From a virus: a DNA stretch of 32,259 nt. Location: positions 1 through 32,259 of the IMG/VR virus record IMGVR_UViG_3300027291_000115, one strand, 5' to 3'. The translations under genes were made by a program, and so were the position numbers. Under the pieces are notes generated by a model. The model was not told where the DNA came from and searched no databases. It worked only from the letters and a program-made list of their open reading frames with translations. How positions within the stretch are numbered: position 1 is the stretch's first letter; each line of letters starts with the position of its first letter. Of this stretch, positions 1,396 to 18,555 are shown one piece after another.

Positions 1396-4300
1396 TTAAT
1401 AAGAAACGAAATCGCCTGTGGCGACATCAATCACACCGGTTAATTTGCCGATCAATGTAACGTCTTGAGCTGCAATTGTGTTTGCAGCACTAACCTGTTC
1501 AATCAAATACAAGTAACCATCAGTGCCATCATTGACGAAAGCTATGAAGCTATCACCAATAGCTACTGCCGTGGTGGTCAGGCCGTTAAGGGCAGTAATA
1601 GCAACACCCATAGTGCCGTCAGCCAGAGCTGTGGTGATTTCAACAAAGCGATCAGTGTTCGCGACTACACCAGCTGCAGCGATGGTCTTCAAGGTGTCAA
1701 CCTCGGTACCCAATACGTTTGTAACCAGATCGGCAGCAAAATACAGCTTGTCAGTACCAGAAGCGAAGGCCGTTACGGTATCGCCTACTGCCCTGATCGT
1801 ATAGTCGTTGTCTGTACCTGCTGCTGAGCCAGTTTCGGTAGCGATGAGCGCGGCCGTTGTACCTGTCCACAAAACTCTGTCAGCGGATGATGTTGTTTCA
1901 GTCAACACAATAATGTCAGCGTCGTCACCGCCTGTGATTGTGTCAGCACCTAGACCACCTACGATGTAATCCACACCCGCCAGAGTCGACAATGTTTCAC
2001 CAGAAGTGCTGCCTTGGAAGTAATCGTTACCAGAAGTACCAGTCACGATCTCGAAACTGCTGAGAGTGTCAGTCACTGTTGAGAACAGTGCATCTTGCGT
2101 AGCATAGATTGCGGAGGATGAGCTTGCAGGAACGCTTGCTAACGATGCTGATATTCCAATCGTACCGCTCATTGCAGTATTGATTGTGGCAGCAGTCACA
2201 GCAGTGGCACCCAAGTTAACGGCGATACCTGTTGCTGTGCCAGTGTTCAACCCTTCAACCGCAGCAACCAAACCACCATCACCAACAGCATAGGTATCGG
2301 TACCCAAGCCGCCACTCAGAACGTCCGCACCGGCACCACCAGTGATCGTGTCAGCTGACACGCCACCTGTAATCGTGTCGGCCAAAGTGCTGCCCGTCAA
2401 TACGTTAGAAGCAGTAGCAGAACCGGTAATCGCCGATTTAATGATGGAGTTCACAGCAGACAAAGTCACACCACCAGTGTTGGTCGAACCATCAATAGTC
2501 AATGTTGTGCCAGCGCTTGTGCTGTTAGCATTCAAAGTTGTAATGGTGACAGCGCCAGAGCCAGTAACGTTCAGCGTGGTCAAGTCTGTTGCCGTTAAAG
2601 TGCCTACAGTGATTGCACCTGTGCTTGAAGATGCCAAATTAATGGTCTCTTCATTGTCAGCAGTCAATGCGGTCAAGGTTGTCCCTGTCAAACCGGTCAC
2701 AGTTAAGCTGTTTGTCGTGCTATCAACCAAACGAGTGATCGTTGCAGTTGAACCCGTAGCTGTATTGGAATAGGTGGTGATACCAGAACCAACGTTTGAG
2801 AAGATTGATGTCACACCGGCGTTTTGCAATTTAGTGAATGTACTGTTGTCCAAGAAAACAGCCATGTCATGAGTGACACCACCTGTATCACGCAATGTTT
2901 CAAATCCAGATACACCGGAAGCTGTAGCTGCTGTTCCTGCAACAGCCAAGGAAAGTATGTCAGTACCTTCGCCACCCGCAATAGTGTTGCCTGCTGTCAG
3001 TGTTGCAGCAATGGTGTCATTGCCTGAACCACCGTCTACGCTGTCCGAAGCACCGCCACCTGTAGTGATGGTGTCATTGCCGTCACCGCCCAACAAAGTA
3101 TCGTTGCCTGCACCGCCAGTGATGACGTCGTTGCCTGCACCGCCGCTGATGGAGGATGCCGAGTCACCAATCAGCGTATCAGAGTTGCCTGAGCCTGTGA
3201 TGCTGGTTACGCCTACAGCAGCAGCACCCATAGTCAGAACAGCTGAACCTGTCAGGCCAGATGCGTCGATGACGTTTGCGGTAATTGCACCCGTGGTCAC
3301 AACACTGTTAGAGCCCGAAATATTCAATGTGGTTGTACCACCAGAGTCAGCTGCCAATGTGATGGTTGCCACGTCTTGCTGAGTAGCAGCGCCACCCGTG
3401 CCAGATGTAGTGATGTTGACTGTTTCAAAGCCATTCACTGCGACGGCCATGCCATTCAAGGCGTCAACTGCGGAGCCATTGTTGGCAATGGTCAGTGAGT
3501 CGGTTGTTGCGACGCCAGTGTCGTTCACGGTCAAACCAGTGGTTGACAAACCAGCAGTCAGCTTTACGGTTTTTGTACCTGCTTCAAATGTGATCACGCT
3601 GGCGCCAGCGTTGGCAACAGCCAATTCGACAGTCGAAATGCCTGCTTGAACGCTTGCTGTGGTCAGGGTGTTGCCTGCCAGTGCGTCAGAAACGGTGATC
3701 TCTTCGAAGTTTGTGATCAACGGTGTTGTCAGAGCTGTCAAGGCTGTCAAGTCAGCAACGACGCCAACCAAATCATCCGTACCGTCACCGCCATTGACTG
3801 TGTCAGTGGCCGTCAATGCACCAGTGGCAAAGGTCACACGGTCGTTACCCGCACCTGCGGAGATCGAGTCCACAGCGACAACTGCACGAGTAATAGCGTC
3901 GTTACCAGCACCACCAGTGATGGTAGAAGCTGTTGCGCCAGCGGCAGTCAGTGTGATAGCACCAGTCGCTGTAGAAGCGTCGATGGTGGTTGCTGTTGCG
4001 TTAGCAAGCGTTGTGAATGTCAAAGCTTTGTCGCCAGTGATATTCAAGGTGGTCACGCTATCGGCAATCAGGTCAGCCAATGTGTTGGCCGAGCCTGTTG
4101 AATTCAAGGTAATGGTCTCAACGCCGGCAACAGTCAGAGTTGCTGCACCAGTTACGTTTGACAGACCAACAGTTGCGGAGTCACTGGTGCCCGTAACGCT
4201 GGAATAAGTCAAAACCTGAGCTGCGATGGCTGTGTCCTTGATGGTCACTGCCTGCGTAGTTGCGATTCCAGAGATAGTCAAACCAACGGTGGAGCCTTGG

Positions 4301-4562
4301 TTGGTCAAGCTGGTGATACCGCTGGCATTGCCCAAGTTGACTGTAGATGCAGTTGTTGTGTTTGTTAGTGTGACCGATTCAATGTTAGCAACTTTGGCAG
4401 GAGTAACAGAACCAATCACTACCGCGAACATCTCATCGGTACCATCACCACCATCCAGTTGGTCGCCCGAGTTCAGTGTTTGCAGACCAGCAGTGCTCAA
4501 GCCAGCATCAAAGCTATCGTCGCCTGTTCCACCGGTAAAATTGTTTGTACCTGTAGTGAGCG
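1396..4562 (-). pseudogene. S-layer/RTX-like surface protein 1, body without its 5' end
   Basis: About 1,054 codons of a giant Thr/Ala/Gly/Asp-rich protein are present. RTX-type calcium-binding nonapeptide repeats of the GGxGxDxx form cluster around the middle (GGAGNDVITGGAGNDTLLGG) and near the C-terminus (GGLGADTITGGDDAD). The remainder is beta-strand repeat with almost no Lys, Arg or Cys. Such proteins are usually secreted by a type I ABC exporter through an uncleaved C-terminal signal and assemble on the surface. The frame ends upstream at 4562, just before LTTGTNNFTGG. A stop codon and mobile-element DNA follow, with no ATG and no ribosome site. The only in-frame early start is a TTG at 4500. 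As it stands the gene is probably silent. It may be a stored cassette rather than a decayed gene, because the reading frame is intact to its stop. Confidence 0.85.
4537..4562. other. Putative attachment site 1 at the S-layer LTT codons
   Basis: AAAATTGTTT, four variable bases and CTGTAGTGAGCG match 18530-18555 at 23 of 26 positions. Similarity to the second locus stops exactly after 4562. On the minus strand the core CGCTCACTACAG encodes the LTT of a motif common near the start of RTX/S-layer repeat regions. To the right lie an XRE gene and a tyrosine integrase, as expected of an attL junction. The crossover position within the core cannot be fixed from one sequence. Confidence 0.72.
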
Positions 4563-4767
4563 GACCAATCTCTGATCCTCTAAGCTGTTGATTTAATTGA
4601 GGATTTTTACAGTTTCGCGGAACTTATTGATACATCCTGTATCTTTCCTGATATTTTGTGAATCCTTTTACGGGTGGCGGTTTGTGCGCCATCTCTAAGT
4701 GCTTGATCCCGATGCCTTTTTCAGCCGGGAGCTTGGCTGAGTTACCTGCGGCAATCCTGAGTTGGCC
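4563..4767. other. Element 1 left arm, non-coding
   Basis: These 205 bp lie between the junction core and the regulator gene. I see no convincing gene. The stretch holds one perfect inverted repeat at 4629-4643, listed separately, and AT-rich runs that could serve as integrase arm sites. Confidence 0.5.
4629..4643. promoter_or_regulatory. Inverted-repeat operator candidate GATACA-N3-TGTATC
   Basis: A perfect 6+3+6 palindrome lies in the element's left arm. A near-copy, GATACA-ATT-TGTAGC, sits at 5129-5143 over the integrase promoter. Two copies of one dyad, one in the attachment arm and one at the regulator/integrase promoter, suggest a common DNA-binding protein. The XRE product of 4768-5112 is the obvious candidate. 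Confidence 0.55.
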
Positions 4768-5112
4768 TCATTCGCCCTTGTTGATAAGGCCGTTTATCTG
4801 CTCCATGACCTTCTTAGTCTCCTCGACCTCCTTGCGGTTCATCTCATCAAACTGGGGCTGCAAGGCCAAATTCTTGACCACCATGGTGAAGCCTCTTTCT
4901 GGTTGATGGTCAGAAAACTCCACCCCAGACTTGCGCAGTGCATCTTTGATCTTTTCGGCTGTATCCAGTTTGGGCTGCATGGTGAAAGATTCGATTCGAG
5001 CCACTGTAGGCCTTGCGATGCCTGCCCTTTTGGCCAATTCCGTTTGGCTCCAGCCGAGCACGGTTCTTCCGGCCTTGATCTGAACAGCAAAGCGAAAAAC
5101 ATTTTCTTGCAT
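4768..5112 (-). CDS. XRE-family HTH regulator of element 1
   Basis: The 114-residue protein has a Cro/CI-type helix-turn-helix at about residues 11-41. It includes LGWSQTELAKRAGIARPTVA, then an RIE turn. The C-terminal half is charged and helical. It is divergent from the integrase with a 56-bp gap, and probably represses or times integrase expression. Element 2 has a related but shorter protein in the same place, with a shared LGWS(Q/R)..L..(R)AGI pattern. The ATG at 5112 is preferred. A GTG directly before it (5115) is equally possible because no clear ribosome site separates them. Confidence 0.87.
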   Translation of the reverse strand: MQENVFRFAVQIKAGRTVLGWSQTELAKRAGIARPTVARIESFTMQPKLDTAEKIKDALRKSGVEFSDHQPERGFTMVVKNLALQPQFDEMNRKEVEETKKVMEQINGLINKGE

Positions 5113-5143
5113 CACTCAAGACTTTCATGATACAATTTGTAGC
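5107..5143 (+). promoter_or_regulatory. Integrase promoter with overlapping dyad operator
   Basis: TTGCAT (5107-5112) and TACAAT (5131-5136), 18 bp apart, form a good sigma-70-type promoter for the integrase. The GATACA-ATT-TGTAGC dyad (5129-5143) covers the -10 box, so a protein bound there would block transcription. A wider TGATAC/GTATCA pair at 5128-5133 and 5150-5155 may extend the operator. This is read from sequence only. Confidence 0.55.
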
Positions 5144-5168
5144 GTGACAGTATCAAAGGATATCCTTC

Positions 5169-6365
5169 ATGGCTCAAATTTTACTCACCCAAGCGCTTGT
5201 CAAAACTGCCGTGTGCCCAAATGACCAAACTAAGCAGGAAATTACTGATAAAGGATGCAAAGGACTGATCCTTGAAGTTAGACAAAGCGGAGGCAAAACA
5301 TATTATCTAAGATACACCAACCATCGTGGGAAGCAACGACAGTATCGTATCGGGAACGCCACAGTTTTGACCTTGTCACAAGCCAGAAGCAAGTCAAAAC
5401 TAGCGCTAAATCAGGCTGCCTTGGGCCAAGACCCCTGCGAAGAGAAAGAGCAGACCAAGAGCGTCCCCACCTTCGCGGATTTCATTGCTGACCAGTACAT
5501 GCCCTATGTCAAGTCGTACAAGCGGTCGTGGGACACCGATGTGAGCCTGCTCAAGAACCACCTGTTACCTCGGTTCGGCAAGCGCTACATGGATGAGATC
5601 ACCCGCCACGACATCGTCAAGATGCACGCCGACCGCAAAGCTTCGGGGGCGGCTGCTGGATCAGCCAATCGGCTTCTCATTTTGATGAGGTACATATTCA
5701 ACCTGACCCTCAAGTGGGAGGTGCCGGGCATCAAGTCCAACCCCTGCAAGGGTATCCCGCTGATGGAAGAGAACAACAAGATGGAGCGGTACTTGTCAGT
5801 TGATGAGGCCGAGCGCTTGTATGGGGCGGTGTGCAAGAGCGAGAACACCATGCTCAAGTACATCGTGCCGATGCTCATCCTCACAGGAGCCAGAAAGCGC
5901 GAAGTGCTGGACGCCCGATGGCAAGACTTTGATCTGGACCGCAGGGCTTGGCGTATCCCCATCAGCAAATCAGGCAAGGCTCGGCATGTGCCTCTATCAG
6001 ACGGTGCACTGGCGCTTCTAGCCACCATGCCCCACTTGACGGATTGCAAGTGGGCGTTTGCTAACCCTGAGACGGGCAAGCCGTATGTATCGATCTTTTG
6101 CGCTTGGAACACAGCGCGTAAGAGCGTAGGGCTGTCGGATGTTCGGATGCACGATTTACGGCACAGTTTCGCGAGTCTGCTGATCAACTCAGGTCGCACC
6201 TTGTACGAGGTGCAGCACATCCTCGGGCACACGCAGGTCAAGACCACACAGAGATACGCCCACCTCAGTCAGGACACCTTACTGGCTGCGGCCAATTCAG
6301 CAACGACTGCTTTGGGAGCAGCAATGCGGCCCATGGTGCAACCCGTCCTTTCTTTTACCGCTTGA
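5169..6365 (+). CDS. int: Tyrosine recombinase/integrase of element 1
   Basis: This 398-residue phage-type integrase has an N-terminal arm-binding domain (DUF4102-like, about 1-95), a SAM-like core-binding domain (about 100-185) and a catalytic domain. The catalytic residues appear intact: R242 in TGARKRE, H328 and R331 in HDLRH, H354 in LGH and nucleophile Y363 in RYAHL. It should catalyse integration and excision at the adjacent core. It is clearly related to the integrase at 19227-20441, especially in the core-binding domain (KRSW.TD..L..NHLLP), which fits use of the same target. The start ATG is preceded by AAAGGA at 8-bp spacing. Confidence 0.95.
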   Translation: MAQILLTQALVKTAVCPNDQTKQEITDKGCKGLILEVRQSGGKTYYLRYTNHRGKQRQYRIGNATVLTLSQARSKSKLALNQAALGQDPCEEKEQTKSVPTFADFIADQYMPYVKSYKRSWDTDVSLLKNHLLPRFGKRYMDEITRHDIVKMHADRKASGAAAGSANRLLILMRYIFNLTLKWEVPGIKSNPCKGIPLMEENNKMERYLSVDEAERLYGAVCKSENTMLKYIVPMLILTGARKREVLDARWQDFDLDRRAWRIPISKSGKARHVPLSDGALALLATMPHLTDCKWAFANPETGKPYVSIFCAWNTARKSVGLSDVRMHDLRHSFASLLINSGRTLYEVQHILGHTQVKTTQRYAHLSQDTLLAAANSATTALGAAMRPMVQPVLSFTA

Positions 6366-6386
6366 TTTTTTACCAAAGGAGCCACC

Positions 6387-6677
6387 ATGACCAAAATACT
6401 CTTACAAGAATTCGTCGCCGAGCCAACTTGCGCCATCGGTCAAATCCCACCAGTCACGGATGCCCTTGACGCTGAATGGGTGATCTTTTTGGACGGTGAT
6501 GTCACCAACACGGATGCATCAAACATCATTGATTTCAAAAAATACCAAGATGAGTACACCTACGAAGACTACTTAATGAACTTCGAGCTGATTGATCAGC
6601 TTTTTGAAACATGCCTGAGCCTTCAGGAAAAATTGATGCAGGCTCAAGAGGTTGTAAGCAAACTTCAAAAGCACTAA
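6387..6677 (+). CDS. Small acidic protein of unknown function
   Basis: The 96-residue acidic protein ends in a probable coiled coil (from about residue 70, LFETCLSLQEKLMQAQEVV). I do not recognise a family. It follows the integrase by 21 bp with a good AAAGGAG site and is likely co-transcribed with it. That position is common for directionality factors or small accessory proteins, but it lacks an evident helix-turn-helix, so no role is assigned. Confidence 0.68.
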   Translation: MTKILLQEFVAEPTCAIGQIPPVTDALDAEWVIFLDGDVTNTDASNIIDFKKYQDEYTYEDYLMNFELIDQLFETCLSLQEKLMQAQEVVSKLQKH

Positions 6678-6684
6678 CCCCATC

Positions 6685-6706
6685 TGTAGCAAAAATAGCA
6701 GTAGCA
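6685..6706 (+). repeat. 22-bp inverted repeat, left copy, flanking higBA
   Basis: The sequence begins TGTAGCAAAAA and ends AGCAGTAGCA. Its exact reverse complement lies at 7477-7498, so a perfect pair encloses an 814-bp segment holding only the toxin-antitoxin module. Each copy contains three TAGCA units. No target-site duplication is apparent next to the ends. Confidence 0.9.
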
Positions 6707-6723
6707 CACTCCAATTAAAATAT

Positions 6724-6752
6724 TTGCAATGATCCCAAATTGGGAACATAAT
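6724..6752 (+). promoter_or_regulatory. higBA promoter with palindromic operator in the spacer
   Basis: TTGCAA (6724-6729) and CATAAT (6747-6752) are exactly 17 bp apart. The palindrome TCCCAAATTGGGA (6733-6745) fills the spacer, the usual place for an antitoxin operator. Transcription would start about 6758-6760, at the toxin ATG itself, which suggests a leaderless higB message. No ribosome site precedes that ATG. Confidence 0.6.
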
Positions 6753-6757
6753 AAGCC

Positions 6758-7051
6758 ATGAGAATTGTTGCCCTTTCTACGCTTCGAGCTTTTTGGCTCA
6801 AACACCCGGATGCGGAGGTACCCCTAAGGGCTTGGTACACGCTGGCCAGCCGTGCCAACTGGAAGACCCCAACCCAGATCAAGGGAGCATACAGGGCAGC
6901 CAGTTTTGTCGGCAGCAACCGTGTTGTCTTCAACATCAAGGGCAATGACTACAGGCTGGTGGTACTGGTGCGTTACGACAAGGGGCTTATGTTTGTCCGC
7001 TTTGTAGGCACGCACGCGCAGTACGACCGAACAGACGTCACAACGGTATAG
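6758..7051 (+). CDS. higB: HigB-type toxin, mRNA interferase
   Basis: The 97-residue basic protein matches the HigB toxin family (RelE-like fold; cleaves mRNA on the ribosome). Recognisable parts are the N-terminal WLKHPDAEVPLRAWY region, NWKTP, the RVVFNIKGNDYRL strand pair and the terminal FVGTHAQYDR, which carries the conserved His and Tyr/Asp. Toxin-first order with the antitoxin 9 bp downstream is characteristic of higBA. Expression is probably repressed by HigA at the spacer palindrome. Confidence 0.92.
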   Translation: MRIVALSTLRAFWLKHPDAEVPLRAWYTLASRANWKTPTQIKGAYRAASFVGSNRVVFNIKGNDYRLVVLVRYDKGLMFVRFVGTHAQYDRTDVTTV

Positions 7052-7060
7052 GAGTTCATC

Positions 7061-7444
7061 ATGGAAATTCGCCCCATTCACACTAAAAAAGACCACAAGG
7101 CCGCTCTGCTTGAGATTGAGCAACTGTGGGATGCGCCTGCCAAGTCACCCCAAGCGGATCGGTTGGAGGTTCTCACTTTGCTGGTAGAACAGTTTGAGAA
7201 GCAGCACTACCCCATTCATGATGTTGACCCCATTGAGTTCATCGAGCACGTCATGGAAAGTCGTGGTTTGACTCGCAAGGATCTTGAGCATTTGATTGGG
7301 TCAAGAGGCCGGGTGGCTGATGTCCTGAACAGAGTGCGCCCCTTGACTCTGGAGATGATCCGCCGTTTGGTTACACAACTTGAGCTTCCTGCGGAAGTGT
7401 TGGTTCGGCCTTACGCCATGCGGGAAGACCTGCTTGCGGCTTGA
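7061..7444 (+). CDS. higA: HigA-type antitoxin
   Basis: The 127-residue HTH protein is of the HigA family. The N-terminal part (about 1-60) would bind the toxin. The XRE-type helix-turn-helix spans about 63-105 (VMESRGLTRKDLEHLIGSRG, then RVADVLNRVRPLTLEMIRRL). A strong ribosome site, AGGAG, lies 7 bp before the ATG. It neutralises HigB and should autorepress the operon. In a mobile element such a pair favours retention of the element. Confidence 0.92.
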   Translation: MEIRPIHTKKDHKAALLEIEQLWDAPAKSPQADRLEVLTLLVEQFEKQHYPIHDVDPIEFIEHVMESRGLTRKDLEHLIGSRGRVADVLNRVRPLTLEMIRRLVTQLELPAEVLVRPYAMREDLLAA

Positions 7445-7476
7445 ACGCGATCACCAATAAATCACATCTACCCGGC

Positions 7477-7498
7477 TGCTACTGCTATTTTTGCTACA
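7477..7498 (-). repeat. 22-bp inverted repeat, right copy, flanking higBA
   Basis: This is the exact reverse complement of 6685-6706. It ends 4 bp before the start codon of the next gene, so besides being a cassette end it could act as a promoter or operator for that gene. Confidence 0.9.
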
Positions 7499-7501
7499 AA
7501 T

Positions 7502-8101
7502 ATGGATGGAGTCCGTAAAGCGATAAACATGCAAAGCGAGGCTAAGCGCCTCAGGGCACTGGCCCCTGAATACGATCCTGTTCGCTGTGATTTTGACTTG
7601 GGGCTGGCCAATGAGATGGAGCGAGAAGCACAGGTCCTGCTGATACCTGAACAGCCTCTTCAAGCAGGCCTTGGAGGCGAGATCATCCCGCCGATGAAGG
7701 ATGGCCTTCCCGGGCTGGAATCAGTCCTCCAAATGCCTGATTTACTCGACCTTGAAGCCAGTGTTCAACGTTCAAATTTGATCGAACGCGCTGGTGTTTT
7801 GGAGTTGGGCATAGAGACGGCCAAGGACACTCGGGCGCAAGGCTCGGTCCAGAAGATGATCAGCCACCAGATGGCAGCGGCACACAAACGGGCGATGAAC
7901 CTCTTGGCCGAGTCTCAGGAGACAAAGGACGTTGATGTGGCCTGCAAGAAGGCCCGTACAGCGGCCAAGATGATGGACGCCTTCAGCAGGGCGGCCTTGA
8001 CCCTTCAGAGGCTTCAAACGGGAGCAAGTCAGGTGGTGCAGGTACAGCACGTACAGGTCAACGGTCCAGCCGTCATCGGCATGGGGGGCCATCAAAAATG
8101 A
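7502..8101 (+). CDS. Phage-type hypothetical protein, partner of the HGGKST protein
   Basis: The 199-residue helical protein ends with a RLQTGASQVVQVQHVQVNG segment and a short Gly-rich tail. Proteins with a similar VQHV.V ending followed by an HGG.STG protein recur as a gene pair in proteobacterial prophages and integrative elements. Their function is unknown to me. It overlaps the next gene by 4 bp (ATGA), so the two are translationally coupled. The ATG at 7502 has no ribosome site. A second in-frame start (MQSEAKRLRAL, 7529) is possible. Confidence 0.75.
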   Translation: MDGVRKAINMQSEAKRLRALAPEYDPVRCDFDLGLANEMEREAQVLLIPEQPLQAGLGGEIIPPMKDGLPGLESVLQMPDLLDLEASVQRSNLIERAGVLELGIETAKDTRAQGSVQKMISHQMAAAHKRAMNLLAESQETKDVDVACKKARTAAKMMDAFSRAALTLQRLQTGASQVVQVQHVQVNGPAVIGMGGHQK

Positions 8102-8361
8102 CGCACAAGCCTATGCACCAAGCAAGGCAGGCGTTGTCCCTTCATCCAAAGTGCGGAGCCAAGTGCAGGAGCGGTGAGCCTTGCAAGAACGCAGCGATGA
8201 AGAACGGACGTTGCAGGATGCACGGAGGAAAGTCCACGGGTGCGCCGATCAAGCACGGTCAGAGGACAAAGGCGGCCCTCGCACAAAGAAGAGAAGACAG
8301 ACGCCTGATCATGGCTTTGAGGAAGGTTTCTTTGCCCGGTGAGCAACGTCTGGTCGAGTAA
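8098..8361 (+). CDS. HGGKSTGAP-motif small phage protein
   Basis: The 87-residue basic protein has four closely spaced Cys (CGAKCRSGEPC and GRC) followed by RMHGGKSTGAP and a GQRT segment. The Cys/His arrangement (C.AK...G.PC....M.NGRC.MHGG) looks like a small metal-binding nucleic-acid module. The family is common in phages and integrative elements next to the upstream partner, without an assigned role that I can name with certainty. Its 3' end overlaps the convergent polymerase-like gene by 53 bp. Confidence 0.8.
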   Translation: MTHKPMHQARQALSLHPKCGAKCRSGEPCKNAAMKNGRCRMHGGKSTGAPIKHGQRTKAALAQRREDRRLIMALRKVSLPGEQRLVE

Positions 8362-9805
8362 CGCGCCCATACACGTTTTTTGGTGCGTTCCACTGAGGTG
8401 AGTTGGAGATAACAAAGCCCCCCACTACAGGCGTCGAATCCATGAAGCGCCAAGCTGAACCTAAGCCCACCTCAGGAAGATATTTCGGCAGTTGCTGCTC
8501 TTCAATCTCAAGGTCAAAACCAGTTGCAGAATAAATCAGTGATTTCAATTTATCGCAGTCAAGCCTTCGTCGAGAGACCCAGCCGTCGTGCATACACAGC
8601 AAGATGTCTTCGCCGCAATGCTCGATGACGGTTTTAAGCGTCAACGCCTCAACACCTTGCAAGGCATGACATAGGAGCTTGAATGTGGGATTTTTCTTGC
8701 CCAATAGCTTGGCCTCGATACCCATGGCATTGACGTAACAGCCTCGATTGCTGTGCGTGTCGTTCACGATGTGTTTGCCCACCGTGAGAATTTCTTTTTT
8801 AAGACCGCGTACAAAGGGATGGGCCGTGAAAAGCTCGGCAGCCTCTGTACCCAGCACCTGCGGGATGGAGGCCAAGTCAGGGTTCGTGTGAAGCGGAGCG
8901 CCGTAGAGCAAAGCGATCAGACACTCCTTGATTTTTTCCAAACCAACGTCGTTGCAGTGCGCATTTAGCTGGATGCGAATCTCTTTTCTGTTGCGCATGT
9001 ACTCATCAACAACTGGGGTGGTCTTACCCAGTCTCTTTGCCCACGCGCTCAGGATGCTGAAGTGGGCGTTGTTGAGGTCGTAGTCCCAGTGGCCGTGCAA
9101 TGCAGCACTGAGCACTTCACGCTGGGTGTTTTGGATCGCAAAGAACACCTCGGCCAGTCGACCAGTGGATTTTTGTTCGTAGAGCAAAGGGATGGAGCCG
9201 GGACACAAGGTGTTTCTGGACAGCTTCAGAAGGCGAAGAGCGCTCATGCGTTGGCGTGGATTGCTGGCCGAACGAGAAAACTCAAGCAAAGCCTCTTGGT
9301 TGATAGGCAAGGTGGGCGATGGCTTGACCCCAACCCACACTGAGCGTTTTGCATGTGTAACGGTAGGGTCGCTGTTGGCTGCGCGGCTCAAGATGACGTT
9401 GGGTGGCATGTGGATCCGTTTTCCATCTTTGAAAACGGCAAAACTTTTGGGGTCCTCCAAAAATTCCACCAGAGCTTCACCCAAAAAGTCGTAGGGTGTG
9501 AAGCTGCTGATGAGGTTGCTGATGTTGTCGCCCTGAACGCAGTGAAAGAAATCTTTCACCACGAGATTGCGTGTGCGAAGATTGCCCCACAGATCTCTCA
9601 TGTACTCCACGGAGAACGCTGCTCCAAAATCTCGTGTGTGTTGGTACCGGTTGTTGGCGAAGTCCCACAGCATCTGTGCGATGTGACGTTGATGTCGTTC
9701 AGAAAGATCAGCAAAGTCCGAGCACCGGTCGCGCAGGTGTTCGAGCAAACCGGCCGGAAGAGTAGAAGAGGAGAGGACCGCCATGCCGACATCATAGGGA
9801 GGCAC
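8309..9805 (-). CDS. Polymerase-like protein with family-A-type palm motifs
   Basis: This is a 498-residue protein. The C-terminal half shows an order of motifs like a family A polymerase palm. A candidate motif A is D241-Y-D-L-N-N-A-H-F-S-I-L. A Lys/Tyr-Gly helix (KIKECLIALLYG) could be motif B. LLCMHDGW (H406, D407) resembles motif C, with Gly in place of the usual Glu. The N-terminal half (1-200) has no domain I recognise. I infer an element-encoded replicase or polymerase, but the match is motif-level only. The annotated GTG start at 9805 lacks a clear ribosome site; an ATG 21 bp inside (9784) is an alternative. It opposes the neighbouring phage-type genes. Confidence 0.66.
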   Translation of the reverse strand: MPPYDVGMAVLSSSTLPAGLLEHLRDRCSDFADLSERHQRHIAQMLWDFANNRYQHTRDFGAAFSVEYMRDLWGNLRTRNLVVKDFFHCVQGDNISNLISSFTPYDFLGEALVEFLEDPKSFAVFKDGKRIHMPPNVILSRAANSDPTVTHAKRSVWVGVKPSPTLPINQEALLEFSRSASNPRQRMSALRLLKLSRNTLCPGSIPLLYEQKSTGRLAEVFFAIQNTQREVLSAALHGHWDYDLNNAHFSILSAWAKRLGKTTPVVDEYMRNRKEIRIQLNAHCNDVGLEKIKECLIALLYGAPLHTNPDLASIPQVLGTEAAELFTAHPFVRGLKKEILTVGKHIVNDTHSNRGCYVNAMGIEAKLLGKKNPTFKLLCHALQGVEALTLKTVIEHCGEDILLCMHDGWVSRRRLDCDKLKSLIYSATGFDLEIEEQQLPKYLPEVGLGSAWRFMDSTPVVGGFVISNSPQWNAPKNVYGRVTRPDVAHRAKKPSSKP

Positions 9806-10049
9806 AGGGGCAAAGGTGGCGGGTCATAGAGGCGCAGGGGGTCGTAGGTCGTAGGCACAGGACGCAGGACGCAGGGGGCGCAGAGGGCGCAGGGGCACCC
9901 CCCCGCCACAGGCACCGCAGAGGGTAGAGGCACAACGGAGGCAAGGGTATCAGTTGAGCATCAAACCTCTGAAACCCGCATATTCATTGGGTTTTGAAGA
10001 AAATCGGTGTGGATTTTGGCTTGCGGTGAACCAGTGTCATTTACACACC
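9806..10049. repeat. Intergenic G-rich short-repeat tract upstream of the polymerase-like gene
   Basis: I see no convincing gene here. From about 9840 to 9900 the plus strand holds short imperfect direct repeats: GTCGTAG twice, CAGGACG twice, then a GCAGGGG/GCAGAGG/GCAGGGG series. An AAACCC...GGGTTT inverted repeat lies at about 9976-9998. Repeats beside a replication-type gene can be an origin with iterons, but the units are irregular. This stretch must also hold the boundary between element genes and the glycosyltransferase operon. Confidence 0.4.
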
Positions 10050-10226
10050 TCACCCCACCAACAACACCGCGTCCCCCACCTGCGGCAAACCGACCACCAA
10101 CACCTCGGTGGCGTTCTCGTCGCTCACATGAAGGTAAGCACCTGACTCCAAAGGCATCCAGCCGATGGACTCGGCTTGGATTTGGGTCAGTTCAGCCCAG
10201 AAGTCGGCTTCAATGTCATGGGTCAT
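10050..10226 (-). CDS. Small hypothetical ORF, 58 residues
   Basis: The acidic 58-residue ORF starts MTHDIEADFWAELTQIQ and ends LPQVGDAVLLVG. It lies on the operon strand 88 bp beyond the 33-residue ORF. There is no ribosome site and no recognisable family. It may be a short real gene, or the remains of a gene cut at the element/operon boundary. Its protein-like composition is the only support. Confidence 0.3.
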   Translation of the reverse strand: MTHDIEADFWAELTQIQAESIGWMPLESGAYLHVSDENATEVLVVGLPQVGDAVLLVG

Positions 10227-10314
10227 TTTGTTTGATAAGCGCTCAGCACAATGACGTTGGTGGTTGGAAAGTCCGGGATGCTGTATTGCGTTGCCGTTGG
10301 CACTATGACACTCA

Positions 10315-14631: not shown

Positions 14632-15237
14632 TTACAAAGGCGTCATGTGCGTAACAGCCAGCGCTTTCATTTGCTCTTCAGTCAAAGCCTCTTTACTGGC
14701 CACAGCCCATAGGTCAAAGTAGGGGTGGGCACGGGCCATGGTGGCCACCGCTTTGAAACCAGCCGCTTGAAGGGTTGCCGTCAACACCTTCTGGGTAAAA
14801 CCGCAGCGGTGCGCCATGTACAAATTGCCTTGGGCCATGGATGAGCGCAGGCCATACAAGATATCGATGGGTGCGATTGGGCCAGCAGGGCTGGTGTAGG
14901 CCGCCTCGGTGAGTTTGTCTTCGGCAATCAGCTTGCAAACGCTTTGCAGATCGGGGCATGTGATGACGGCTATGCCATCAGATTTTAAAACCCGCAAAAA
15001 CTCAGCAAGTGCCATAGGCACTTCATGCGGATACAAATGCTCGATGTTGTGAGAAGAGAAAACCGCGTCTAACGATTCAGAAAAAACGGAAGACATATCG
15101 GTCATGGTGCCGACCAAGTCAGGTTTGACGGATTCGTCGATGTCAAAACGAAGCTCAGTCCAGTCAGCAGACGAGAGGGCCTTGGTGGTGCGGTCTTTGC
15201 GCTTGTGGCCGCAGCCGACATGAAGAAAGGATTTCAT
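14632..15237 (-). CDS. SAM-dependent methyltransferase MT2, S-layer-linked paralogue
   Basis: The 201-residue class I methyltransferase is collinear with MT1 (683-1294). It shares HVGCG, SHNIEHLYPHE, LAEFLRVLKSDG, TCPDLQSVC and NLYMAHRCGFTQKVL. The C-terminal 25 residues differ most. It lies 36 bp after the second S-layer terminator, as MT1 does after the first, so each S-layer body travels with its own copy. Unlike MT1, it is followed by the FkbM-like and glycosyltransferase genes instead of a TPR gene. Confidence 0.88.
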   Translation of the reverse strand: MKSFLHVGCGHKRKDRTTKALSSADWTELRFDIDESVKPDLVGTMTDMSSVFSESLDAVFSSHNIEHLYPHEVPMALAEFLRVLKSDGIAVITCPDLQSVCKLIAEDKLTEAAYTSPAGPIAPIDILYGLRSSMAQGNLYMAHRCGFTQKVLTATLQAAGFKAVATMARAHPYFDLWAVASKEALTEEQMKALAVTHMTPL

Positions 15238-15370: not shown

Positions 15371-18300
15371 TTAGATGAAGTCAGCTGTTGTCAGAGTAGT
15401 CACACCCAACAACACCACAGCAGCCGTGTTAAGAGCGTTGGTCAAACCAGCGTTGGCCAGGTTGGTGAACACCAAAGAGTCAGCACCAGCAGCTGCTTGT
15501 GTAAACACACCAGTACTTTCGACATAAGTACCGCGAATACTGTAGTTGTTACCTACTGTCAAAGCCTGCACGTCTGCTGCAACGGAGATCAAACCGTAGT
15601 TAGCCGCAGTGGCCACATCCAATTTGTCTGTGCCGCTGGTGAAGCCAGAGATCACGTCCACACCGTTACCGAAGGTGATAGTTTCGCCAGCAACAACCGC
15701 TGCTTCTGTGATCGTTTCTGCAGTACGAGCAACTGATGCACCTGCAGCAATGACAAACGTATCTGCACCAGATCCACCAACCATAAAGTCAGCACCTGTA
15801 CCACCGGTGATTGTTTGTGCGCCAGTAGCGTTACCTGCAATGTAGTCACCACCAGTTGTACCAGTCACCCGTGTGAAGTTGCTGATGGTGTCGACAAAAC
15901 TGGATGCACCTGCCGCGTTTGTTGCAAACAAGTAACCAGCTTTGCCGGCACCAATTTCGCCTAAAGCACCGCTGATGAAGCTAACTGCTGTACCGCCTGA
16001 GACAAAGCGGCCTGAAGCCTCGCCTGAGGTAATGGCGGTTGCGCTCAAGTTAATGATTGCGCCAGACGATGCAGTGTTACCTGCGTCTGTGACAGCAACC
16101 ATGCCAGAGGCGTCAAGCACGTTGGTACCCGAACCACCGTCCAATGTATCAGCACCCAAGCCACCGGCAAGCGTATCGCTGCCAGATCCGCCAGAGATAG
16201 AGTCGGCTTTTGTGCCACCGGTAATCACGTCTGCACCTGAGCCACCAGTGATGGTGGATGCCACTGTGCTCACAGATGTCACTGTCAAAGCACCAGCGTA
16301 GCTGGCAGAGCTGATTGAAGTGATGGCCGTGTTGCCTGTCAAGGTCAATGTAGTTGACAAGCCATTACCGTCCAAAGTAATGGTCTTGGCTTGCAAGTCA
16401 GCCAAAGTGATGGTGGCAGCAGCGTCAGCAGTTGCGCCAGTGGCTGTTGTATCAGCATCGTTGTGCGTGATCTTGACGTTCTCAATGCCTGTGGTGGTTG
16501 CGCCGTAAGCAGCAGCACCAACACCCGTTGCGCCTGTATAGATCAGGTTGATGGTGTCGTTGGTACCAGTCGCTGTTGCCAAAGCAAAAGTTGTAGTGCC
16601 AGTTTGTGCGATCAGTGTTTCGACTGTTGCGTTGTCAGCAAAGCCAGTGATGCTGTCACCACCACCGTTGTCAGCAGCAATTTGCACGTAGTTGATCGAG
16701 CCAAGGCGCGACATGTCAGGGTTGGTGGTCAATGCATCGGCAAAGTTCACACGCTCAACGTTCTTGAGGTTGTTGATAAACGTTGTGTTTGCTGCAAAGG
16801 TCAAGCCTGCCAATGTTGCAGCGTCAGCAGTACCAATCACCAATGTGTCAGTGCCGTCGCCACCATCGATCTTCTGACCAGAGGCCAACATGCCTGTGAG
16901 GGTCAATGTGTCGTTACCTGCGCCACCGTCGATAACAGTAGTTGTACCTGCTGCACCTTGGGTAATGGAGTCGTTGCCGTCGCCACCAGACAATGTATCG
17001 TTACCGCCACCGCCAGTAACAGTGTCGTTACCTGCACCGGCAGTCACGTTATCGGCGGCTGCACCACCAGTGATGTTGTCGTTACCAGCACCGCCGTCGA
17101 TGGTCGTAGCAGTTGCAGAACCAACGATCGTGTCAGCGTTGGCTGTACCGATGATGTTGGTCACACCGACTGTGGCGCCAACGTTGGTAAATGTACGTGT
17201 ACCAGTCAAGCCAGAAGCATCAACAGTACCCGATGTGGCACCAGTAATGGTGATCACGCCAGTTGTCACTGTGTTGTCGCCGACGAAACGGATTGTTTGA
17301 GCGCCGCCTGTATCAGGCGTAGCACCAATGGTTGTCAACGTCTGGCTAGTCTTGGTGAGGGTGCCAGCAGTTGAGGTATTGATCGTTACAGTCTCGAAGC
17401 CGCCGATTGTCAATGCGTTGGCAAGAACGTTAACCGCACCAACAGCAGGCGCAATGTTCAAGGTCAAAGTGTCAGTCGTAGCTGAACCTGTATCGTTCAC
17501 TGTCAATGCGTGTGCTTGAGCGGCTGTTTGAGTCAGCGTACGGTCACCCGCTTGGAAAACGACTGTACCAGCGCCACCAGGAGCAACTTGCAATTCAACA
17601 GCAGAAATGCCTGACTGGACGTTTGCAGTGGTCAATGTGTTGGCACCCAGAGCATCGGACAAAGCAAGGGTTTCAAAGTTCTTGAGGATTGGGGCGCTTG
17701 GTGTGGCAATGGTCAAACCGCGCAGTTCAGCAGAAGTACCAACCAGCTTGTCAGTACCTGCACCGCCATCCACGGAATCTGTGTTTGCCAGGTTGGCAGT
17801 GAAAGTGATGGTGTCGTTGCCATCACCCAAAGAGATGTTGTCATTGACTGCTGTACCACCGGTCATGGTCACGTTGTCATTACCAGCGCCACCAACCAAA
17901 GTCGCAGCTGTTGCGTTGTTGGGGACGATGTAAGTAACAGCAGCTGTTGAAGCAGAAGAGTCAACAGACAAAGTTGTTGCTGGCAGTGTGGCCAAGTTCA
18001 ATGTTTGGCTGCCGGATGTGTTGATCTTTGTTGTGTTCGCAGCAGTGATTGCTGTAACGGCGTTTGCAGAGCCAGCGGAAACAATGTTCAGTGTTTCAAC
18101 GCCTGCAACAACGTTTGTACCGGCGGTTTGACCGTTCAGAGTCAAAGTTGCGGTATCTGCAATGCCTGCAACAGCAGCTGTCGTGAATGTGAATGTTGCA
18201 CCAACTGCACTGTTGGATACGTTGAGGCCAACGGCTGTCGAAGCAATACCAGTAAACGTTGGAGCTGTTGTGCTTCCGTTGCTGGAAACATTGGTCACGC

Positions 18301-18555
18301 CAGTAGAGCCTGTCAAGGCAACGGTGACGCCAGTAGTGTCGGTCAAATTGATGTTTTCAATGTTGCTGACGTTTGACAAAGTCACAGTAGAACCAGCGAC
18401 CGAGCCGGTAATGTTCAATGTATCTGTACCTGCACCACCATTCAAAGTGTCGCCAGTAGTCAATGTTGCGTTAGCAGCTGTCGCTGTTGTGTTGGGGGCA
18501 TTGAATGTATCGTTGCCAGCGCCGCCTGCAAAATTGTTTAGATCTGTAGTGAGCG
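15371..18555 (-). pseudogene. S-layer/RTX-like surface protein 2, body without its 5' end
   Basis: About 1,060 codons are present, paralogous to the first gene; for example NTLTTANVQSGIS here matches NTLTTASVQAGIS there. RTX calcium-binding repeats form a mid-protein block (GGGGNDTLSGGDGNDS) and C-terminal blocks (GGSGSDTLAGGLGADTLDGG; GGTGADFMVGGSGADTF). The C-terminus ends LGVTTLTTADFI, with a hydrophobic tail typical of type I secretion substrates. The frame opens at 18555 just before LTTDLNNFAGG, with a stop codon slightly upstream and no ATG or ribosome site. Both S-layer bodies are cut in the same codon phase. In this arrangement the gene lacks expression signals. It would regain them if joined to an S-layer 5' end across the core. 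Confidence 0.85.
18530..18555. other. Putative attachment site 2 at the S-layer LTT codons
   Basis: AAAATTGTTT-AGAT-CTGTAGTGAGCG, a direct repeat of 4537-4562. To the left is S-layer body 2; to the right is DNA leading to the second XRE/integrase pair. It can be read as the left junction of the P2-like prophage and, at the same time, as the right junction of the 4551-18555 segment. Confidence 0.72.

Follow-up and report, generated by a model that had tools for sequence, protein, structure and literature searches.

Polymerases of family A that consist of little more than a minimal core were described in transposons and viruses as the TV-Pol family by Iyer, Abhiman and Aravind in 2008 (PMC2579912). 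The genes of that family adjoin D5 helicases or, in a subset whose proteins have an extra N-terminal domain, resolvases, integrases and transposases; this subset lies in hot spots rich in restriction-modification operons, and Ma-LMM01 was named among the members (PMC2579912). The TV-Pols were predicted in 2008 to be primase-polymerases, yet the only one put to the test up to 2020 was the Pol I-like CCPol. CCPol, which is counted among the TV-Pols, is a working polymerase and, together with its partner MP, a primase (PMC7581432). A further family A protein, divPolA2 of the barbaviruses, is phage-borne and additional to the main replicative polymerase (PMC11348598).

The DNA analysed here (the window) is a 32,259-nucleotide IMG/VR contig that reads as bacterial surface-layer and glycosylation genes and a 5.7-kb integrase element (4581-10308) that contains a polymerase gene. 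From about 18.8 kb onward, we read the window as a prophage with tail genes. The host of the element is a Comamonadaceae-type bacterium. The following features define the element and the neighbours of the polymerase gene.

4581 to 10308, no strand: conserved extent of the element, a continuous 94.3% match to IMG/VR contig L002 that ends at both ends
4768 to 5115, minus strand: XRE-type HTH protein at the integrase end of the element (Pfam; 44.6% over 65 aa in L092)
5169 to 6365, plus strand: tyrosine integrase of 398 aa (Pfam; identity of 54.7% with the integrase next to the Rhodoferax relative)
6758 to 7444, plus strand: HigB-like toxin (6758-7051) and HTH antitoxin (7061-7444), from domain searches
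7502 to 8101, plus strand: protein of 199 aa and unknown function that is conserved together with the polymerase in a Rhodoferax element (64.8% identity in L092)
8098 to 8361, plus strand: small HGGxSTG-domain protein, its gene convergent with that of the polymerase and overlapping the latter's 3' end (domain search)

A 96-aa protein is also encoded in the element. The 199-aa protein has no Pfam domain above cut-off, a Pfam search of the window element revealed no helicase, initiator or recognised SSB gene, and no convincing direct repeat was found to mark the element ends. A 25-nt inverted repeat (6682-6706 and 7477-7501, 96% complementary) closely flanks the toxin and antitoxin genes, which look as if they form a small mobile cassette. 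When the element is compared with that of L002, the integrase has a dS of 0.53 and the HTH gene one of 0.26, whereas their neighbours, including the polymerase gene (6387-9784), have dS values of 0.02-0.09. This far higher divergence of the integrase and HTH genes suggests recombination inside the element.

The ORF itself had been placed at 8309-9805 by a first-pass annotation, and these coordinates are exact, but the gene is read on the minus strand, from a GTG at 9805 to 8309 (498 codons); the plus-strand frame over the same positions is broken by stops. The likelier start is the ATG at 9784, which would give a protein of 491 aa, as the relatives begin at residues aligned just after M8. Residues are numbered here by the 498-codon frame, and numbers in the structural model are lower by 8.

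8309 to 9805, minus strand: TV-Pol-like family A polymerase ORF (ORF call; start sites of relatives)
9386 to 9781, minus strand: N-terminal region, residues 9-140, mixed helix and strand, partly of low confidence, with no known domain (Pfam, AlphaFold2 model)
8477 to 9385, minus strand: predicted polymerase domain, residues 141-443, with a thumb-like helix pair, beta-hairpin, palm and fingers (model 133-435 aligned to family A polymerases)
9128 to 9166, minus strand: TGRL...IQN segment, residues 214-226, holding Q225 and the Arg that contacts the template, R216 (counterpart by alignment: Pol I TGRL...LQN)
9050 to 9085, minus strand: motif A, DYDLNNAHFSIL, residues 241-252, with catalytic D243, and H248 at the Pol I E710 steric-gate position (alignment)
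8897 to 8929, minus strand: motif B, KECLIALLYGA, residues 293-303, with I297 at the Pol I F762 position and Y301 equivalent to Y766 (alignment)
8648 to 8659, minus strand: QGVE, residues 383-386, equivalent of the Pol I Q849 region (alignment)
8582 to 8590, minus strand: motif C, HDG, residues 406-408, with catalytic D407 (alignment)

The ORF has no match in Pfam (even at E 10), PHROGs or NCBIfam and nothing significant in the PDB sequence set, and a PDB search with a 3-row profile gave nothing useful. Its relationship to family A was observed instead by profile-profile comparison. A ten-member profile was aligned with a set of family A DNA polymerases (11 bacterial Pol I and those of T7, SP6, phiKMV, P-SSP7 and Gustav), and hhalign returned a probability of 94.5% with an E value of 8e-8 and a score of 67.3 over 200 columns, whereas the highest score among 58 column shuffles was 22.9. 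This alignment pairs TGRL/LQN, motif A, motif B, the QG segment and motif C with their Pol I counterparts, in order.

Likewise, an AlphaFold2 model predicted from the ten-sequence alignment (mean pLDDT 75.8, pTM 0.77, core pLDDT about 90) resembles family A polymerases. All of the 50 PDB matches listed by Foldseek are family A polymerases, and VIA-align gave a Z of 15.8 to Bst Pol I (rmsd 4.3, 279 residues), 14.9 to Pol theta, 14.7 to Klenow and 14.1 to T7 DNA polymerase. Fold matches in BFVD include virophage replication proteins, from Zamilon (E 3e-8) and Qinghai Lake virophage (E 4e-8). In the model, D243 sits where a predicted strand ends (model 232-236), and the turn of a predicted hairpin (model 393-403) holds D407, which is what is expected of palm motifs; two predicted helices (model 162-188) occupy the thumb position ahead of a putative beta-hairpin region of short strands (model 196-211). 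The fold match is confined to the polymerase part and no exonuclease domain was detected by Pfam or in the model, as the first-pass annotation had supposed, while the N-terminal region (residues 9-140) was barely probed by the fold search. Because the profile aligns with family A and the predicted fold matches family A polymerases, we consider the palm call right, and the ORF very probably encodes a minimal Pol I-like polymerase of the TV-Pol kind with palm, fingers, short thumb and an uncharacterised N-terminal region. The earlier proposal of a family A-like palm enzyme is thus borne out by the profile match, the predicted fold and the conservation of the catalytic positions.

This conservation was assessed in a joint alignment of 27 family members with 16 family A polymerases. 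Residues D243, K293, G302 and D407 are present in all 27 members, R216, Q225 and H406 in 26 each and Q383 in 25, and the Arg at R216 is shared by 16/16 of the Pol A sequences. The catalytic Asp of motif A had originally been taken to be D241; that column, however, is variable (D, E, N, R, L or S), and it is the invariant D243 that aligns with Pol I D705. The motifs on which the first reading rested, DYDLNNAHFSIL at 241-252, K293-x7-Y301-G302 and LLCMHDGW with D407, are all present. They exceed chance, in that they recur in the same order in proteins that are just 24-38% identical overall and the family profile scores far above shuffles against family A. Landmarks of the fingers, which had been described as missing, are represented by the K...YG of motif B, the K and G of which are invariant. 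The fingers RxxxK has its Lys in 27/27 members, and the Arg at K-4 is absent from the window protein and likewise, in the same alignment, from Ma-LMM01 gp030; this Arg therefore cannot be a strict TV-Pol criterion. The Gly that follows the motif C Asp had been noted as a peculiarity of the window protein, and it is there, but it is not unusual, since G, A, S or C is usual in the family at this position, which is Glu in Pol I.

The residues that select the sugar of the incoming nucleotide are a point of difference from Pol I. Pol I E710 excludes ribonucleotides. At the corresponding position (H248), Glu is found in none of the 27 family members (H, V, A, Q or S) and in 16/16 family A controls. 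The Pol I F762 position (I297) is occupied by L, I, T, V or N, or by Tyr in two members, so that 25/27 are non-aromatic and none has Phe. Judged by Pol I biochemistry, the changed gate residues would relax the choice of sugar. CCPol retains the Glu ribose gate; its disappearance from every member of the window family suggests that ribonucleotide priming may occur.

Relatives of the window protein were identified by several routes. When the protein was used alone it gave no direct match in phages, and a first genome scan was also empty; scans of viral contigs with the single protein and with an alignment returned only the near-identical contig L002. Between the window and L002, the polymerase gene has 9 synonymous and 4 non-synonymous changes (dN/dS 0.13, from small numbers) and is free of frameshifts and stops. 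A tblastn search revealed relatives with 26-32% identity on two Polaromonas glacier plasmids, pH8NP1 and pW9NP1, annotated as a Clp-domain protein or a hypothetical protein. Members in Rhodoferax, Roseateles and Pelomonas were recovered from a genome collection with a DNA pattern, written by hand, that links motifs A and C (3 true relatives among 16 matches); the remaining matches were rejected as out of frame, interrupted or unrelated. One further candidate, L011, was rejected as an unrelated phage protein. Whole-genome profile searches detected further relatives: in the family of genome G002, 10 of 400 genomes gave a hit, and in its order 2 of 399; within the genus to which the Rhodoferax MAG belongs the figure was 8 of 103, and within that of genome G348 it was 7 of 89.

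More distant members come from a few large phages and include gp030 of Microcystis phage Ma-LMM01, a Vibrio phage protein and a Desulfovibrio phage protein. The pH8NP1 relative matches Ma-LMM01 gp030 at E 6e-5 and its PHROG, phrog_34692, at E 1e-5, and gp030 is the protein that we take to be the named TV-Pol member, since it has the TV-Pol motifs. Outside its own family, the window protein itself reaches nothing significant directly, and its link to the named TV-Pols runs via that family. By this route, the window gene is a divergent and hitherto unannotated TV-Pol member. A second, clearly related subfamily, found among the whole-genome profile hits in Burkholderiales genomes (L037, L038, L040, L049, L051-L054, L061, L062 and L065) has the motifs FGRxYY, EYDIRSS, SFGAR and VHDA (hhalign 99.1%, E 5e-19), and Val or Ala at the ribose gate. 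Its predicted fold is likewise that of family A polymerases (Z 14.3 to Klenow, rmsd 4.6, 275 residues). The members tested gave no Pfam or NCBIfam report, and tblastn against phage records gave no match and so no link to the divPolA2 proteins.

Phylogenetic analysis separated the family, as a clade with 100/100 support, from all family A controls and grouped the window protein with the Roseateles and Pelomonas proteins (100/100), in a tree that contains several long branches and whose deeper order is unsure. Plasmid and chromosomal copies are intermixed, as expected for exchange between elements.

The genes that surround the relatives point to mobile DNA of more than one kind. In pW9NP1, the polymerase gene is followed, on its own strand and after a gap of 10 bp, by repA, and pH8NP1, pW9NP1 and the 11.9-kb contig L093 have RepA, ParA and a resolvase in common. 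The REP regions of both Polaromonas plasmids sufficed for replication when cloned (PMC6015842). In L093 (contig C38 of G348, 11,937 bp), the polymerase relative spans the contig ends and the other genes match pH8NP1; this contig is probably an unrecognised complete circular plasmid. A Rhodoferax element (G878) combines the polymerase with versions of the integrase (55% identical) and of the 199-aa protein (65% identical) and with an HTH protein that is related, and it is flanked as the window element is, by a glycosyltransferase and a surface-layer gene. The Roseateles relative has an integrase neighbour, and chromosomal relatives in L087, L088 and L089 adjoin type I restriction genes. In G970 (L091, 653-12502), a BrxHI-PglZ-BrxA set of the BREX type lies just upstream of the polymerase relative and an AAA ATPase gene just downstream. 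The D5_N helicase domain was absent from all 12 records searched, namely the window, pH8NP1, pW9NP1, L002 and eight genomes that carry the gene. The suggestion that the protein is specific to small integrative elements is not supported, since relatives also occur in phages, on plasmids and close to BREX or restriction-modification genes. A check for homologues beside the HGGKST pair had also been proposed. Linkage to the HGGxSTG gene is not supported: its 199-aa partner is kept beside the polymerase in one Rhodoferax element, but the HGGxSTG gene itself was not found beside other relatives.

Taken together, these observations lead us to favour, with moderate confidence, an enzyme of the TV-Pol kind that primes and/or copies the excised element. 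For the priming or replication role of the polymerase taken by itself we put the chances at about even; it is favoured because of the small size of the protein, its mobile context, the repA neighbour and the precedent of CCPol. Points that weigh against the overall reading are the lack of a helicase, initiator or recognised SSB gene in the element, the cloned REP regions that replicated (PMC6015842), the displaced fingers Arg and the indirect link to the named TV-Pols. The enzyme would start and/or extend DNA strands on the excised, circular element or on the related plasmids. By a two-metal family A mechanism, as the fold and residues suggest, D243 and D407 would hold two metal ions, and R216, K293 and Y301 would place the template and the nucleotide. 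An enzyme with a short thumb and no exonuclease would be expected to be neither very faithful nor very processive. With no helicase linked, the strands would be opened by RepA together with DnaB of the host on the plasmids; in the integrative element, the host would have to supply this function.

In the main rival reading, the enzyme would be neither primase nor replicase: it would extend existing primers to fill gaps or make repairs, either finishing integration or mending element DNA. We regard this as unlikely, yet it accommodates the lack of a linked helicase, initiator or SSB gene in the window element and of D5_N in 12/12 records, and a similar role has been suggested for the phage divPolA2 (PMC11348598). 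The position of the gene just ahead of repA in pW9NP1, and its retention on three related plasmids, point instead to replicon maintenance.

Somewhat less probable still is an RNA polymerase of the single-subunit type or an enzyme that makes RNA primers. The Pol I E710 and F762 residues, both of which are replaced in 27/27 members, are missing from T7-type RNA polymerases too, and the same option was raised for divPolA2 (PMC11348598). However, the score of the profile against T7-like RNA polymerases was within that of shuffles (23.5 versus 25.0) in a test that is also blind to the known kinship of Pol A with these enzymes, the fold matches listed are DNA polymerases with no T7-like RNA polymerase among them, and no promoter-binding domain was recognised.

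A cargo polymerase associated with defence, sensing or acting on phage DNA, might be suspected from the chromosomal relatives beside type I restriction genes and the BrxHI-PglZ-BrxA set. This is improbable, as PADLOC has no model that matches the four family members tested, TV-Pol genes in restriction-modification hot spots have already been described (PMC2579912) and the annotations of the two Polaromonas plasmids show no restriction or BREX neighbours. Least probable of all is a relic that has decayed or lost its catalytic activity, to which the GTG start, the lack of annotation and the rarity in databases might point, given catalytic columns intact over great distances, a dN/dS of 0.13 between the two contigs (small counts) and no frameshift or stop.

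The preferred reading, a priming and/or copying enzyme of the TV-Pol kind, can be compared with the described systems feature by feature. With the TV-Pols, the window family shares a minimal family A core of 400-600 aa without an exonuclease or other nuclease fusion, an extra N-terminal region as in the subset, the two palm Asp residues, the template-contacting hairpin Arg (R216), mobile elements with an integrase or resolvase, nearby restriction-modification operons and a sequence family that includes a named founding member, Ma-LMM01. It differs in the lack of a fused or linked D5 helicase (0/12 records with D5_N) and in the RxxxK Arg, which is off its usual place in the window protein, as in Ma-LMM01. 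The CCPol-MP and PolA-SSB primases of SCCmec and Bacillota islands similarly place a family A domain on an island with a site-specific recombinase (PMC7581432, PMC10061031). CCPol, however, keeps Pol I E710 and F762 (PMC7581432), both changed in the window protein, and it has an OB-fold partner and a linked helicase, whereas the window element has no linked helicase and no recognised SSB partner. By the partners that define that type, the window polymerase is probably not a CCPol-MP-type primase.

The window protein resembles DNA polymerase I and T7 DNA polymerase (PF00476) in its predicted fold, motif order, Asp pair, Arg, Lys, Tyr, Gln and His, but it lacks an exonuclease, the ribose gate and E883 and belongs to a separate clade. 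It is not a PF00476 member by score, being unmatched by that model, for which the best score in the family (E 0.0019, 17.7 bits, from the distant relative L044) is below the 34.3-bit cut-off. Likened by description only, divPolA2 shares an active-looking palm and an N-terminal globular region of unknown fold (PMC11348598).

Of the new points, three are the most useful: neither ribose-gate residue is kept, the D5 helicase is absent, and small plasmids of cultured strains carry the gene. Small standalone members without a linked helicase on Polaromonas plasmids of 7-11 kb make the 2008 prediction directly testable. Because both Pol I ribose-excluding residues are gone throughout the clade, we also propose, tentatively and as an outcome that we think unlikely, that it is a helicase-unlinked primase-polymerase that takes ribonucleotides and makes RNA or mixed primers for Comamonadaceae integrase elements and RepA plasmids. 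If so, it would constitute a priming route outside the DnaG and AEP primase families. Present Pfam and NCBIfam models, and most PHROG ones, do not detect the family, with the result that its enzymes are annotated as hypothetical or are misnamed, one as a Clp protease domain protein.

Separate observations concern the surface-layer genes of the window. Two RTX-like surface-layer genes (1396-4560 and 15371-18555, both minus strand) are apparently without an N-terminus, and each adjoins an HTH gene and a tyrosine integrase. Both frames start abruptly at a common LTT-x-x-x-N-F-x-G junction with an identical 12-bp sequence, CTGTAGTGAGCG (4551-4562 and 18544-18555), which is also present once in contig L002. 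A Rhodoferax relative carries about 740 extra residues ahead of the part that matches. It may be that two distinct elements make use of one shared site within surface-layer genes and possibly exchange the 3' portions of these genes. Finally, similar methyltransferase-like genes (683-1294 and 14632-15237, both minus strand) follow the two surface-layer genes, one after each, and the region looks like a duplicated unit of surface-layer and methyltransferase genes.
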